Shown here in pieces: positions 9,547 to 64,000 of a DNA stretch of 64,000 nt. The stretch lies in the NCBI GenBank assembly GCA_019187485.1, contig JABAQR010000014.1, positions 62,001 to 126,000 on the forward strand. The letters run 5' to 3'. The stretch's first letter is position 1; each line of letters opens with the position of its first letter. This DNA is from Lysobacterales bacterium (GTDB lineage Bacteria > Pseudomonadota > Gammaproteobacteria > Xanthomonadales > SZUA-5). The notes under the pieces were generated by a model. The model saw only the letters and a list, made by a program, of their open reading frames with translations, had not been told where the DNA came from and ran no database searches. Both the position numbers and the translations under genes were made by a program.

Positions 9547-9718
9547 CACGGCGCACCCGGAAGGCCGTGCCGTCCGTGGACGTGGCGCATTGCCTGCGTC
9601 CCATGCGGCGCCAGGAAGAAGCCAATCGCCAAATCAAGCACTTGCGCGCTCGATTTGCGAACTGACCATCCATGGCCGGCGTTTCCTCTCTCGCGGGACG
9701 GATCCTGCGGTGACTAAC

Positions 9719-10855
9719 TCACTCCGGCAGCAGGGCACCGATGGCATCGAGGGCGGCGGCGATGCGGCGCACTTCGATAATCGGGACGCCTGCCGTGAAT
9801 GCCGCGTCACTGAGCGTGCTGCCCTGTGCGAGCGCACGCACCACCTGCGCCTCGCGCGGGTAGTCGGCCGCCAGATCGATGCGCTCGATCAGACGGTAGC
9901 GCAAGCCGTCGTCGAGCTCAGCCGGCGCATCTTCGATCCAGGCGCACAGCCAGCGCAACTCCAGATACGGCCGTGCCGGCAAGCGCTCGCGCACCGCGGC
10001 GAAATCGCCGGTCGAGAGCGTGCGCCAGTCGCCGCGGCGCGGGGCGGAGCGGCACATCTCCGCGAGCACGCACAGTGCCCCACGCGCGTAGTACTGGCGA
10101 TTGCGCGGATCCAGCGTCAGCGCGATCCCGGCGACTTCCGCTCGCGAAGGCCCAGGCAGCAGCCGTCCCGACAGGAAGGCGGACAGCGGGTGGCGCGATT
10201 CGGCTTCCTCGGTGGTCAGTGTGTGCAGGGTGCCGACGAGGCCGCTCGCGAGCGCGCCGCGCTTGTCCTTGCGCGCAATGCCCCATTCGGTCTTGCCCTC
10301 GGTGGCCTCGACATCGACATGGTCTGGCAAGCGGATCGATTTCAGCGCATCGCGGTGCTGCTCGCGCGGGTCGTGGCGGAAGAAGGCCTCCGCCTCGTGC
10401 ATCAGCTCGGCGCCGCGGGTATCCGCCGGCGGCATCCAGTCGGCGTCGCTGTCGAGCAGGTTGTCGCTGGTCTTCCAGCGGTCCGAAGGTTCGGAATCGA
10501 AAAGGTCGTCGTACACGTTGTGCGTGATCGCCGGACCCGCTGGTGGTTGCGCGGCGGCGACGCCGGTCAGGTTGAACAACTTGACCAGTTGCTCCAGCGA
10601 CAGCGGCCAGTGGACCGTTTCCATGCCGGCGGCGCCGAAGGCCGGATCGACCAGGCGCACGCGCCGCGGCGCCCCCGGCGCCAGCGCCTCCTCGCCGTTG
10701 TCGGCGATCACCAGCAGGTCGACGTGCTCGTCGCCGTCCCGGCGCAGCCGCCACTTGTCCTCCAGTTGCACCGCCGCGCGCCGAATCAGCAGGCGCAGGT
10801 AGGCGACCTCGTCATCGCTGCCGCCGACGAATTCGAGGATGCGTTCGCGTTTCAT
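9719..10855 (-). CDS. Conserved-looking protein of unknown function (378 aa)
   Basis: I do not recognise this protein. It is soluble, with no signal peptide. Residues 1-90 could be a degenerate receiver-like fold (VDLLVIADNGEE). A linker rich in Asp, Ser and Trp follows (DSEPSDRWKTSDNLLDSDADW, positions about 120-140), then a helical middle part. The last 60 residues contain a likely winged-helix-type segment (LSDAAFTAGVPIIEVRRIAA). It has normal codon use and ends with its own stop before sspB. It diverges from the dihydropyrimidinase gene with 131 bp between. A sensory or regulatory scaffold is possible, but this is inference. Confidence 0.65.
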   Translation of the reverse strand: MKRERILEFVGGSDDEVAYLRLLIRRAAVQLEDKWRLRRDGDEHVDLLVIADNGEEALAPGAPRRVRLVDPAFGAAGMETVHWPLSLEQLVKLFNLTGVAAAQPPAGPAITHNVYDDLFDSEPSDRWKTSDNLLDSDADWMPPADTRGAELMHEAEAFFRHDPREQHRDALKSIRLPDHVDVEATEGKTEWGIARKDKRGALASGLVGTLHTLTTEEAESRHPLSAFLSGRLLPGPSRAEVAGIALTLDPRNRQYYARGALCVLAEMCRSAPRRGDWRTLSTGDFAAVRERLPARPYLELRWLCAWIEDAPAELDDGLRYRLIERIDLAADYPREAQVVRALAQGSTLSDAAFTAGVPIIEVRRIAAALDAIGALLPE

Positions 10856-25239: not shown

Positions 25240-25742
25240 AGCGCGCCTGGATCGGACTTGGCAGCAATCTCGGCGCGCCCGAACGCCAGGTCGATCACGC
25301 TTTGCGCGCGCTCTCCTTGTTGGCGCGTTCACGACTGGTTGCGGCTTCTTCGCTGTATCGCTCGCTGCCCTGGGGCGACCCGGATCAGGATGATTACGTC
25401 AACGCGGTCGCTGCGCTCGACACCCGGTTGCCGCCGCGCGTCTTGATGGAGCAACTGCTACGCATCGAGGCAGAGCATGGTCGTGATCGCAGCGCGCAGC
25501 GACCCAATGGCCCGCGCACGCTCGACCTCGATCTGTTGTTGTACGGCGAGGAGCATTACCGGTTGCCTGACCTGACGTTGCCGCATCCACGCCTGCACGA
25601 GCGTGCCTTCGTGCTGCTGCCGCTGGCCGAGCTCGCGCCGGAGCTGCCGATTCCTGGTCACGGCAACGTGAAGTCCCTGCTCAAACCGGAATTCGCTAGC
25701 CTGTGCTGGCGCCTGCCCGAGTCGGGCGCTTCTCTCCGTTGA
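25236..25742 (+). CDS. folK: 2-amino-4-hydroxy-6-hydroxymethyldihydropteridine pyrophosphokinase
   Basis: A 168-aa folate-pathway enzyme that transfers pyrophosphate from ATP to 6-hydroxymethyl-dihydropterin. The motifs GLGSNLGAPERQ (near 7-18), SSLYRSLPWGDPDQDDYVNA (near 38-57) and GPRTLDLDLLLYG (metal-binding aspartates, near 91-103) are intact. The ATG overlaps the pcnB stop, and panB starts 8 bp after the folK stop. This pcnB-folK-panB order is known in many gammaproteobacteria. Confidence 0.95.
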   Translation: MKRAWIGLGSNLGAPERQVDHALRALSLLARSRLVAASSLYRSLPWGDPDQDDYVNAVAALDTRLPPRVLMEQLLRIEAEHGRDRSAQRPNGPRTLDLDLLLYGEEHYRLPDLTLPHPRLHERAFVLLPLAELAPELPIPGHGNVKSLLKPEFASLCWRLPESGASLR

Positions 25743-25750
25743 GCGCCGCC

Positions 25751-26581
25751 ATGTACCCGACTCCGTCCGTCTCCGCGCCCGGCAGCAAGCCGGTGTCCGT
25801 CCCCGGCCTGCGCAAGATGAAGCAGGAGGGCACGCCGATCGTCGCACTGACCGCCTACGACGCCAGCTTTGCGCACGTACTCGACGCCGCCGGTGTCGAT
25901 GTGGTGCTGGTCGGCGATTCCCTCGGCATGGTCTTCCAGGGCCACCCGAACACCCTGCCGGTGACCGTCGACGACATCGTCTACCACAGCCGTGCCGTGC
26001 GCCGCGGCCTGGCGCGCGCGCTGCTGATGGCGGACATGCCTTTCCTGAGCTACGCGACGCCGGAGCAGGCGCTCGCGACGGCGAAGCGCCTGCTGGTCGA
26101 TGCCGAAGCCGGCATGGTCAAGCTCGAGGGCGGCCAGGACTGCGTGCTCGAGGTGATCCGCTTCCTGACCGAGCGCGAGGTGCCGGTGTGCGCGCACCTC
26201 GGCCTGACGCCGCAATCGATCCTGCGCATGGGCGGTTTCCGCGTGCAGGGACGCGAGGAGGCCGCGCAGAAGAAGATGGTCGAGCAGGCGCACGCGGTGG
26301 TCGCCGCCGGCGCCGAGGCGCTGGTGCTCGAATGCGTACCGGCGACGCTCGCTCAGCAGATCACCCAGGCGATCGAGATCCCCACCATCGGCATCGGTGC
26401 CGGTGTGCATTGCGACGGCCAGATCCTGGTCGGCTACGACGCCCTCGGCATCACCCCGGGCAAGCGCGTGCGCTTCACCAAGGACTTCCTGATCGAAACC
26501 GGCAGCGTCGAAGGCGCCGTCCAGCGCTACGCCGCGGACGTCCGCGCGCGGCGTTTTCCGGGGCCGGAACACAGTTTCTGA
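25751..26581 (+). CDS. panB: 3-methyl-2-oxobutanoate hydroxymethyltransferase
   Basis: A 276-aa (beta/alpha)8 enzyme that makes ketopantoate from ketoisovalerate in pantothenate synthesis. The metal and substrate motifs are visible: LVGDSLGMVFQGH (near 50), KLEGGQD (near 120), GLTPQSI (near 153) and the C-terminal IGIGAG. The ATG at 25751 begins YPTPSVSAPGSKP; an alternative start inside folK at 25703 is less likely. It is separated from panC by an ACGCAAAGG hairpin repeat. Confidence 0.95.
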   Translation: MYPTPSVSAPGSKPVSVPGLRKMKQEGTPIVALTAYDASFAHVLDAAGVDVVLVGDSLGMVFQGHPNTLPVTVDDIVYHSRAVRRGLARALLMADMPFLSYATPEQALATAKRLLVDAEAGMVKLEGGQDCVLEVIRFLTEREVPVCAHLGLTPQSILRMGGFRVQGREEAAQKKMVEQAHAVVAAGAEALVLECVPATLAQQITQAIEIPTIGIGAGVHCDGQILVGYDALGITPGKRVRFTKDFLIETGSVEGAVQRYAADVRARRFPGPEHSF

Positions 26582-26610
26582 GCCTTGCGCCACGCTCCGG
26601 GCGTGGCCGG

Positions 26611-26797
26611 AAGAGCGTTGGACGCAAAGGACGCAAAGAAGAGCAAGCAAGGACGCAAAGGAGGCGGGCAGCTCGGTCGAATAACTTGGGGCTGCGTCGC
26701 TTCACGCCTCGAGATGACGACCTCAGTCTTCCCCGAGCCATTGCCGTTCTTTGCGTCCTTTCTTTTCCCCTTTGCGTCCTTTGCGTCCAACGCTCTT
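26611..26797. repeat. ACGCAAAGG-type hairpin element, copy 1 (perfect ends)
   Basis: A 187-bp intergenic element with perfect terminal inverted repeats of 28 bp: 26611-26638 begins AAGAGCGTTGG and continues with tandem ACGCAAAGG words, and its exact inverse ends at 26797. A further arm word pair lies inside (26651-26662 and about 26761-26778). The spacer includes CGCCTCGAGATGACGACC. It lies in the panB-panC gap. Two related copies are at 50401 and 52665. There is no open frame of note and no transposase. Confidence 0.85.
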
Positions 26798-26843
26798 CTG
26801 GTCGCTGATAGCGTAGGCGCCCCGAATCGCGCGAGCCCGACCC

Positions 26844-27689
26844 ATGCAGCGTTTCAACGATCCCGCGCCGATGCGCGAACTGCTGCGCGAGTGGCGGCGC
26901 GAGCGGCAGCGGATCGCGTTCGTGCCGACCATGGGCAATCTGCACGAGGGCCACATCTCGCTGGTCGAGAAGGCGCGCGGGCTGGCCGATCGGGTGGTCG
27001 CCAGCGTGTTCGTCAACCCCACCCAGTTCGGGCCCTCGGAGGACTACGCGGCCTATCCGCGCACGCTCGAGCGCGACGCCGGCTTCCTCAGTGCGGCCGG
27101 ATGCGACGTGCTGTTCACGCCGACGATCGAATCGATGTACCCCTACGGCGAGACCGCGGCCTGGGTGGACGTGCCAAGCCTGTCCGGGATCCTGTGCGGC
27201 GCGTTCCGGCCGGGGCATTTCCGCGGTGTCGCCACCGTGGTCACACGGCTGTTCAACCATGTCGCTCCGGACGTTGCGGTATTCGGTGAGAAGGACTACC
27301 AGCAACTGCTGCTGATCCGGCGCATGACCCGTGACCTCGGTTTCCCGATCGAGATCGTCGGTGCACCCACCGCCCGCGATGCCGATGGCCTGGCGATGTC
27401 TTCGCGCAACCAGTATCTGAGCGCGGAACAGCGCGCGATCGCAGGCACCATCCATCGCGTGCTGCGCGCGGTGGCCGATGTGGTGGTCGCCGGTGGCGAC
27501 GCCACGCCGAGTATCGAGACCGGGCTCGCCACGCTGCGCACCGCCGGTTTCCGCCCGGACTACCTGGAGGTGCGCAGCGCCGAGTCGCTGCAGCCGCCCG
27601 ATGCCGGGGAGCGCGAACTGGTCGTGCTGACCGCCGCCTGGCTGGGCCGGGCGCGGCTCATCGACAACCTGCGTTTCACGAAACCCTAA
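26844..27689 (+). CDS. panC: Pantothenate synthetase
   Basis: A 281-aa ligase that joins pantoate and beta-alanine with ATP. The nucleotide-binding motif [15 protein letters not shown] (near 27-41), pantoate-site [16 protein letters not shown] (near 57-72), [13 protein letters not shown] (near 148-160) and MSSRNQYLS (KMSKS-like, near 184-192) are all intact. It follows panB on the same strand after the hairpin element. No panD gene (aspartate decarboxylase) is present in the window. Confidence 0.95.
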
Positions 27690-27872: not shown

Positions 27873-28065
27873 GTGCCCGGCAGGACGCGCCTGCCTGGAG
27901 GTGGAAGTCCCCTGCTCGTCCGGCAAAGGGAAGAGTCGGCCGAACGGCAAAAGGTGTCACGGGCAACTGCGAATCCGGAGGAAGCCTGGGTAGTGCGCCG
28001 GGCTGGCGAACAGGAGGCGGATAGAAGGCGGCACAGCGGGGCGAGGCGGACACTATCGTCGAAGC
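27873..28065 (+). mobile_element. Group II intron 5-prime fragment (domain I), copy A
   Basis: The sequence begins GTGCCCGGCAGGACGCGCC and contains the typical domain I phrases TGGAGGTGGAAGTCC, GGCAACTGCGAATCCGG and CTGGCGAACAGGAGGCGG. The first 120 nt are about 80% identical to copy B at 38484. No reverse transcriptase and no domain V follow, so this is a dead 5-prime piece. Position directly behind a terminator T run is the known insertion preference of class C group II introns. The rest of the stretch up to 28430 has no recognisable gene. Confidence 0.72.
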
Positions 28066-28430
28066 CTGGTTCTTGTGCGGATCGCATCCCAGCAAGTGAT
28101 GGAAGTCCACCTCCGCGCGAACGCGGCAACCTTTGGTCCGCGGATGTGCGGGTGGTGGGTACAACACCTCGGTCCCGACCACAATCCAGGCGGCATCAGG
28201 AAGCGCCACTTCCACTTGGAACGCGACCTGTGAAAACCATCATGTACTGCCTTGCGTACGGGAAAAGTAACCCAAGGCATTGTTCTGCAAGGCATCCATT
28301 CTTGGGACGGTGATCGAGAGTTCGCACGCCGCCGGGTCGGGTGCCGACGCTGACCGAGCCTCGCCTGGTTTGCCTCGCCGTCAACGCCTCGCCGGGTTAT
28401 CGTCGTCGGGTCATCCCGGAGAGTGCGCGC

Positions 28431-43758: not shown

Positions 43759-43873
43759 GGGTATGGGGCGCGGGAAGAGCCACGAGCGGCTCCGATGAGC
43801 CATTCTGCGCTTGTGTGACTCACAGATTGTGCGAGCTTCCCCGTGCCCCGTGCCCCGTGCCCCGTGCCCCGTC
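43756..43873. repeat. CCCCGTG tandem repeat with a degenerate inverted partner
   Basis: Five near-perfect tandem copies of the 7-mer CCCCGTG occupy 43839-43873, ending exactly at the mgtE stop codon. A degenerate inverse (CACGGG and GGGGCGCGGG, 43756-43775) lies about 65 nt upstream. It resembles the other short-word inverted elements in this window. It spans the end of mgtE and the start of tatD. Confidence 0.5.
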
Positions 43874-50400: not shown

Positions 50401-50502
50401 AAGAGCGTTGGACGCAAAGGACGCAAAGTTGAAAAGAAAGGACGCAAAGGAAAGCGCAAGCAAATCTTGGCTTTGTTTGCGTCCTTTGCGCCCTTTGCGT
50501 CA
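50401..50502. repeat. ACGCAAAGG-type hairpin element, copy 2 (inside the fds operon)
   Basis: The left arm (50401-50428) is identical to the end of copy 1: AAGAGCGTTGG followed by ACGCAAAGG words. Another ACGCAAAGG word is at 50442-50450. The right arm (about 50471-50500) has TTTGCGTCC and CTTTGCG words in inverse, less perfectly. The arms can form a long hairpin in the fdsB-fdsA intercistronic RNA. It probably acts as a mRNA-stability or polarity element, if anything. Confidence 0.8.
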
Positions 50503-50554
50503 AGAAAATCAGCCTTCGGGCGCCAGCGCGCGCCATCAGGTGATCGCGTGATGC

Positions 50555-52575: not shown

Positions 52576-52664
52576 GCGCAATTGTAGTCGCGCGCGATGG
52601 TCCCTGGCGCGCAGGAGCACGATTCATCGCGCCCGCCATGGCCGTGGGACTCCGATCGGGCCGG

Positions 52665-52779
52665 AAAAGCGCTGGACGCAAAGTACGCAAAGGAGAAAAG
52701 AAAGGACGCAAAGGAGAGCGGGAGCGGAATCGTCCGCCCGCTCTTGGCTTTCTTTGCGTCCTTTGCGTACTTTGCGGCC
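52665..52779. repeat. ACGCAAAGG-type hairpin element, copy 3 (with compensatory change)
   Basis: Left arm 52665-52714 has GGACGCAAAGTACGCAAAGG and a later GGACGCAAAGG. Right arm about 52748-52779 has CTTTGCGTCC and CTTTGCGTAC. The left-arm change (GGACG to GTACG) is matched in the right arm (CGTCC to CGTAC), so pairing is kept. The element lies upstream of fdsG and downstream of the EVE gene's end. The remaining gap to 52898 holds no gene. Confidence 0.82.
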
Positions 52780-52898
52780 ACAAACAGGTGCTGCAATCAG
52801 CGCGGGAACTCGGGGCCAGGGCCGGTTCCTGGTGCCTTCCCAGCTTCTCGCCGGGACGGCCGACCCGCAGTCAGACGTTCCCTGGTCGAATCGCGCCC

Positions 52899-53948: not shown

Positions 53949-54137
53949 GGGTCCTCCGCCGATGCCGATGCGGGTCTCACGACCTTGATCCGTAGGATCA
54001 GGTGGGAAGAAGATCGCCGCTAAAGGCGGTCCGCTGCGAGGCGGACAAGCGCATACGCGGCTGGCAACTCTTCCCGAGGTCGAACAACAGGGTCAAGGTT
54101 TATTGCGGACACGCTGTCGCACAACGCAGAGGACGCC
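53949..54137 (-). ncRNA. ssrS: 6S RNA candidate
   Basis: Located between zapA and the 5-FCL gene, the conserved 6S site. On the minus strand a promoter reads CTGGCG, 17 bp, TACAAT (-10 at 54148-54143), giving a start near 54137. The ends pair (GTCCTC with GAGGAC). GGGAAGAG pairs with CTTCTTCCC in the central stem. The diagnostic 3-prime hairpin CACCTGATCC / GGATCAAGG matches the family's CACCTTGAACC / GGTTCAAGG pattern. About 189 nt, normal for 6S. It inhibits sigma-70 RNA polymerase in the stationary phase. Confidence 0.78.
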
Positions 54138-63807: not shown

Positions 63808-63829
63808 GCGGCGTGGGAAGGCCAACTGC

Positions 63830-63981
63830 GGGGCTGGGGGCTGGGGGCTGGGGACCTGGCCTGTCGCTTCGGACGCGTCATTCAGCGGGCTCGTGGCGTG
63901 ATCACGCAGGAACTCCGGGAGCGGGTTCACCCTGCGACGTCCAAGCACATCGGTCGCCCGTCCCCAGCCCCCCAGCCCCGC
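63830..63981. repeat. GGGGCTG-type inverted element after rapZ
   Basis: Left arm 63830-63855 has three tandem GGGGCTG-type words ending GGGGAC. Right arm 63961-63981 begins GTCCCCAGCCCCCCAGCCC, the inverse. The spacer is about 105 nt. It has the same layout as the other short-word elements in the window and no gene. It lies just after the rapZ stop. Confidence 0.6.
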
Positions 63982-64000
63982 CGTTCCAGGCTTTTCCATG

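Follow-up and report, generated by a model that had tools for sequence, protein, structure and literature searches.

What is the long hairpin that lies between panB and panC in this 64-kb stretch of bacterial DNA (the window, meaning the whole sequence analyzed), and how might it have come to lie there? Its two 28-bp arms (AAGAGCGTTGGACGCAAAGGACGCAAAG) are perfect inverted copies of each other built from ACGCAAAGG words, as a preliminary description of the sequence had put it, and the spacer then given as about 130 bp measures 131 nt (Table 1). When one mismatch is allowed, the arms stretch to 26607-26638 and 26770-26801. The words follow each other with a period of 9 nt, rather than the 7-nt period of STRR/heptamer repeats, and ACGCAAAGG is found at 10 sites in the window (0.33 expected from shuffles). 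At the thresholds used, no other inverted repeat in the window has arms of 24 nt or more. The RNA fold of the element is calculated at -131 kcal/mol (z is -11 compared with shuffles), and its DNA fold is likewise strong. The earlier reading that 26611-26797 holds no open frame agrees with our search, which located no protein gene inside this copy. An Rfam scan returned no family for the element, only sub-threshold microRNA-like hairpin matches. Elsewhere in the window, the scan matched a Group II intron domain 3' of panC (27957-28114; RF02001, 37.5 bits, gathering 32) and a 6S RNA gene on the minus strand (53949-54135; L037:7539-7725).

Table 1. Features of the panB–panC hairpin, its neighbors and its further copies in the window
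Feature	Position	Strand	Description	Match
panB, ketopantoate hydroxymethyltransferase, upstream neighbor	25703..26581	+		Pfam PF02548, E 1.5e-104
Left arm	26611..26638	+	28 nt, AAGAGCGTTGG then ACGCAAAGG-type words	perfect inverted match to 26770-26797
Spacer	26639..26769		131 nt, gene-free; long-stem fold; extra inverted word pair 26651-26661 / 26745-26758	
Right arm	26770..26797	-	28 nt	inverted match to left arm
panC, pantoate-beta-alanine ligase, downstream neighbor	26844..27689	+		Pfam PF02569, E 2e-103
Second copy	50401..50504		right end imperfect	identical 28-nt left end
Third copy	52664..52782		AAAAGCGCTGGACGCAAAG end; in compound subfamily	

The hairpin is one of many. The additional copies previously noted at 50401 and 52665 are real, and the former carries the exact 28-nt end. 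Its neighbors, both on the minus strand, encode NADH-dehydrogenase 51K-like and molybdopterin oxidoreductase domains; the other copy lies outside a 2Fe-2S ferredoxin gene of the minus strand, past the start of that gene. In the source genome (G000; 3.83 Mb in 81 contigs, completeness 99.5%), GACGCAAAGGACGC with at most one mismatch occurs at 147 sites, compared with 11 for the reversed pattern. We located 57 word clusters in the fetched stretches of this genome. They correspond to ∼56 elements, because both arms of one gene-bearing copy were counted as separate clusters, and these counts are minima since they are drawn from the fetched stretches. Two ways in which the preliminary description could have failed, namely that the genome holds no other copies or that copies lie at random in coding regions, can thus be set aside: 55 of the 57 clusters are intergenic according to a simple codon-model gene caller (coding density of the window is 0.835). 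Both arms are present in 47/57 clusters, and the median length is 104 nt. The polarity of the words is fixed, with ACGCAAAG first and CTTTGCGT second in all 57 clusters. The flanking genes are co-directional for 43 of the 55 intergenic clusters (background 215/301 gene pairs), and the distance to the neighboring gene is often 30-55 nt on each side.

Dozens of dispersed copies have AAGAGCGTTGG ends in common. The loops of the copies in this genome are mostly unrelated, so copying of whole elements is not visible here except in one subfamily with common loops and flanks. In this subfamily, ∼17 elements are embedded in a compound dispersed repeat of ∼260 nt (L055:3916-4175, L044:5546-5621, window 9682-9724), flank pieces of which are also found without the full palindrome.

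A single copy in G000 (C5:7120-7602) has the same arrays enclosing an open frame, which encodes a GxxExxY protein (TIGR04256, E 1.6e-40; PF13366, E 3.9e-39). The ends of the gene-less copies match the ends of this element, which is located between carA and carB. The CarA frame enters the word array, and the array codes for the last CarA residues and the stop codon (L205, L204, L244, L258); the element thus abuts the extreme 3' end of carA. The same arrangement is found in the relative G005 (Lysobacterales MAG RX3_metabat.bin.54), and carA|carB is a recurrent site of GxxExxY elements. Comparison of 66 GxxExxY sequences revealed that Glu-33, Tyr-36, Asp-72, Glu-82-x-Lys-84, Gln-96, and Tyr-100 (fragment numbering) are kept in 98-100% of them. 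The protein thus has the conserved Asp, the ExK and the RecB-type Q-Y motifs of PD-(D/E)XK enzymes, together with their predicted fold. Compared with solved structures, an AlphaFold2 model (pLDDT 91) resembles Cas4 SSO0001 most closely (Z 9.9); next come further PD-(D/E)XK nucleases, among them Hjc resolvases and restriction enzymes. By this model GxxExxY is a PD-(D/E)XK nuclease with a predicted fold nearest to Cas4, and its conserved catalytic residues suggest an active enzyme.

To relate words and gene beyond this genome, we used at least 118 stretches that hold the 18-mer GACGCAAAGGACGCAAAG and that were chosen by the word alone from a collection of ∼85,000 species (Nostoc, Chlamydiae, Planctomycetes, Acidobacteria, Chloroflexi, Bacteroidota, and more). 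Among the matches listed, 10 of 118 stretches contain a GxxExxY gene, in nine cases at a distance of 7-207 nt from the 18-mer; a four-helix-bundle gene is present in none of the 118. PF13366 is present in 41/50 word-bearing genomes, again among the matches listed, compared with 3/14 named controls; a background of 49/299 refers to the window's order only, whereas the word-bearing genomes span other phyla. Some of the nine word-bearing genomes without PF13366 are incomplete. The 18-mer itself is patchily distributed, occurring in 5/299 genomes of the window's order. Seen from the gene, inverted arrays flank 57 of 61 GxxExxY loci across phyla (score above all 40 shuffles) versus 8 of 100 random positions. 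The words are spaced by 8-10 nt and share a C[GA]CN[AG]A[GT] core (CGCAAAG, CACAGAG, CGCAGAT, CACGGAT, CGCTAAG, and others), and 40 of 50 gene-bearing copies are located downstream of a co-directional gene. We considered plasmids and phages as carriers and rejected them, as GxxExxY is rare on plasmids and was not found on phages. In each of four plasmid-borne examples, the two genes on either side are co-directional, and arrays or related inverted ends are present.

Comparison of orthologous spacers reveals turnover. G000 and G002 have an ACGCAAAGG element in the panB|panC spacer, where G001 has a gene-less palindrome of GTTGGT words and G003-G005 have no full element (the G004 spacer is short). 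A pheT-like spacer holds elements with differing ends in G000 and G001, two more G000 sites are without the element in G002 or G001, and the array of a Nostoc spacer is missing in the more distant genomes L343 and L344. Elements thus come and go, and the same spacers are re-used. The comparison of empty and filled sites advocated in the preliminary description was informative in one respect, in that it returned orthologous sites that lack the element and others that hold a different one, but no target duplication could be defined in the panB|panC, pheT, carA|carB, two other, and one Nostoc spacers. An exact empty/filled pair giving the boundaries was not found in the spacers compared. The GxxExxY-bearing Nostoc locus offers no empty site because the orthologues examined carry it.

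Across phyla, the arm match is 24.0 within a locus versus 11.0 between loci (0 of 2000 permutations). In G000, within-locus agreement above the between-locus level was not seen, and co-evolution of arms per locus is unsupported there; it is evident in Nostoc and in the cross-phylum comparison. At an orthologous Nostoc GxxExxY locus (86-92% identical across several kb in the closest genomes), both arms consist of CGCAAAG words in some species and of CGCAGAG words in others, and in a second Nostoc spacer the words of one array change type as a block. Mapping of the AG/AT word type on a tree of the 66 GxxExxY proteins requires three changes, compared with 11-18 in 500 shuffles, a low count that partly reflects vertical inheritance at sites such as carA|carB. 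One of the switches is found in G000 itself, where the protein belongs to the AT clade yet is accompanied by AG words. The arrays look as if they are replaced or converted as cassettes, rather than mutated point by point. In Nostoc, a word array is also found nested in a small repeat with CAATACGGTTCAGTTAAG / CTTAACTGAACCGTATTG ends (L121:5794-5886, L132:6896-7016, L149:40-161), and in a Nostoc spacer the word array of one species is interrupted by an unrelated insert of ∼50 nt (L340).

The association with the gene, the arrays and the turnover thus define the panB–panC hairpin, very probably, as one of the gene-less members of a family of operon-spacer elements that is linked to a nuclease and spans phyla, and with which it shares inverted C[GA]CN[AG]A[GT] word arrays of fixed polarity. 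As a whole, the explanation by such a family and its proposed mode of spread is, on balance, probable. The complete element consists of inverted short-word arrays around one small gene, GxxExxY, and we favor spread of the elements by nuclease cutting and break repair. How the parts work together we can propose only tentatively: GxxExxY may recognize the word arrays, or the hairpin formed by them, and cut there, and repair of the break from another copy would spread the elements and homogenize their words, as a homing-like gene conversion. Gene-less copies would travel as non-autonomous passengers, with the one GxxExxY gene, located between carA and carB, acting on them in trans, and the unit may be seen as selfish and homing-like. 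We infer the action of GxxExxY on the words. Several observations speak against this explanation: the spacers compared yielded neither an insertion with exact boundaries nor a target duplication; in G000, arms of one locus agree no more than arms of different loci, and most loops are unrelated; nine of the 50 word-bearing genomes, some of them incomplete, lack PF13366; and GxxExxY is scarce on plasmids and missing from the phages searched. The earlier proposal of a non-autonomous element moved or copied in trans stands in part, given many intergenic copies with conserved arms, empty or refilled orthologous sites, and a copy that shares these ends and carries a gene whose product could act in trans; the target duplication it would lead one to look for was not found in the spacers compared. 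The data point to mobile-like elements that settle between operon genes and that are new to the literature searched: in the part of the open-access literature covered, no paper was found that describes GxxExxY elements or deals with these words.

The main rival, already raised in the preliminary description, places the function in RNA. The hairpin would be transcribed within operons and kept for processing (for example by RNase III) or for mRNA stabilization or attenuation between cistrons, and GxxExxY would either have such RNA as its target or be carried along as a passenger. A very stable stem, the position of the elements between co-directional genes at 30-55 nt from each, and the gene-bearing copies downstream of co-directional genes (40/50) fit such a role, for which the 23S rRNA intervening sequences provide an analogue: these stem-loops have an S23p ORF and are processed by RNase III (PMC4990558). 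However, the same spacers in relatives lack the element or contain another kind, the distribution is patchy (5/299 genomes of the order), the DNA also folds strongly, and the closest solved folds are mainly DNA nucleases, and we regard a role in RNA as unlikely. Agreement of arms within a locus and their joint switching are also what template switching in a quasi-palindrome would produce, with slippage creating the tandem words and neither an element nor an enzyme involved. Also in favor of this reading, the length of heptamer repeats differs among Xanthomonas species (PMC4692102). Such neutral palindromes leave unexplained why the same words occur across phyla, in fixed polarity, tied to GxxExxY and excluded from genes, and why dozens of dispersed copies end in AAGAGCGTTGG; we find this reading rather improbable.

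Terminal inverted repeats, small size, multiple copies and intergenic location are traits of MITEs that the element displays, and the ∼17 similar ∼260-nt copies of one subfamily would suit an ordinary MITE mobilized by a conventional transposase encoded elsewhere in the genome, with GxxExxY as unrelated cargo. A search of G000 (completeness 99.5%) returned 0 matches for Y1_Tnp/RAYT, and RAYT/Y1 was rejected as the driver for this reason. The spacers compared showed no target duplication, and arrays accompany GxxExxY at nearly all of its loci across phyla, unlike chance cargo, so that an ordinary MITE appears very unlikely. We give least credence to a defense-type system, in which GxxExxY would attack foreign DNA while the arrays dispersed in the genome serve as marks of self or as stops. 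The nuclease is Cas4/RecB-like, chromosomal, rare on plasmids and absent from the phages searched, as one might expect of such a system, but no PADLOC model matches it, and annotated GxxExxY examples are single genes amid housekeeping genes.

The GxxExxY-linked elements resemble several known systems in part. REP/REPIN elements and their RAYT (TnpA-REP) likewise combine many short intergenic palindromes with apparently one serving gene per genome, but that gene is a Y1 transposase, of which G000 has none, whereas the gene linked here is a PD-(D/E)XK nuclease, and REP arms of 20-40 nt are replaced by tandem 9-nt words. MITEs are similar in that their gene-less copies are small, intergenic and bounded by terminal inverted repeats, and in that a relative carrying a gene has these ends too; they differ in that the gene linked here is not a known transposase, the word-array ends switch type, and no target duplication is seen. 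Heptamer repeats (cyanobacterial STRR, Xanthomonas/Nostoc GGGAATC (PMC4692102), Beggiatoaceae TAACTGA (PMC4679880)) likewise consist of short words repeated in tandem between genes, which in Xanthomonas often form convergent pairs (PMC4692102), but they have a period of 7, other words and no linked gene in the cited passages, in contrast to the period of 8-10 and the linked nuclease found here. GxxExxY has motifs and fold in common with Cas4/RecB-type nucleases, from which it differs by its size (∼125 aa), its one domain, and the lack of a CRISPR or helicase partner at the loci seen. Enzyme, word architecture and phylum-wide spread set the elements apart from other intergenic palindromes served by one gene.

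A sister family is formed by 7-nt-word palindromes with four-helix-bundle (S23/IVP) genes. G000 has five PF05635 genes (three also checked against TIGR02436), and inverted word arrays surround 15 of the 17 four-helix-bundle loci tested in G000 and relatives. These arrays are largely composed of 7-nt words that vary by site (GGGACCC, AACTAGC, GTTTTAC, GTGAGTA, GGGGCAC). The four-helix-bundle protein family includes S23p. In Coxiella, the ORF carried by the 23S rRNA intervening sequence is S23p (PMC4990558). Like the elements described here, such intervening sequences form a stem-loop, carry a small ORF in its loop and are inserted into DNA that is transcribed, and S23p-type genes occur in the 7-nt-word family; the panB–panC copy differs in lying between protein genes and in having no ORF, and among the matches listed for the 118 word loci S23p never accompanies the present word class, where GxxExxY is found instead.

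It is conceivable, though we would not yet call it probable, that both families belong to one class of operon-spacer elements bounded by word arrays that are swapped and homogenized as cassettes. This class would comprise at least two sister families (GxxExxY with 8-10-nt words and S23/IVP with 7-nt words) and a single mechanism, one that works with no known transposase, would connect the orphan GxxExxY family, heptamer repeats and 23S rRNA intervening sequences. Annotations of many bacteria list GxxExxY and four-helix-bundle proteins to which no role is assigned, and repeats of the ACGCAAAG/CACAGAG/CGCAGAT type are dispersed in many genomes with no known mechanism. Gene and repeats taken as one unit provide a testable function for both, and would account for the spread of short repeats into the spaces between operon genes in different phyla with no standard transposase involved. 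The window also contains, at 63829-63986 after a stop codon, a gene-less 7-nt-word palindrome (GGGGCTG ... CCCCAGC) of the type that flanks four-helix-bundle genes elsewhere, and at 43839-43872 a CCCCGTG array (x4.9) with a weak partner arm, a word found beside four-helix-bundle genes in relatives.
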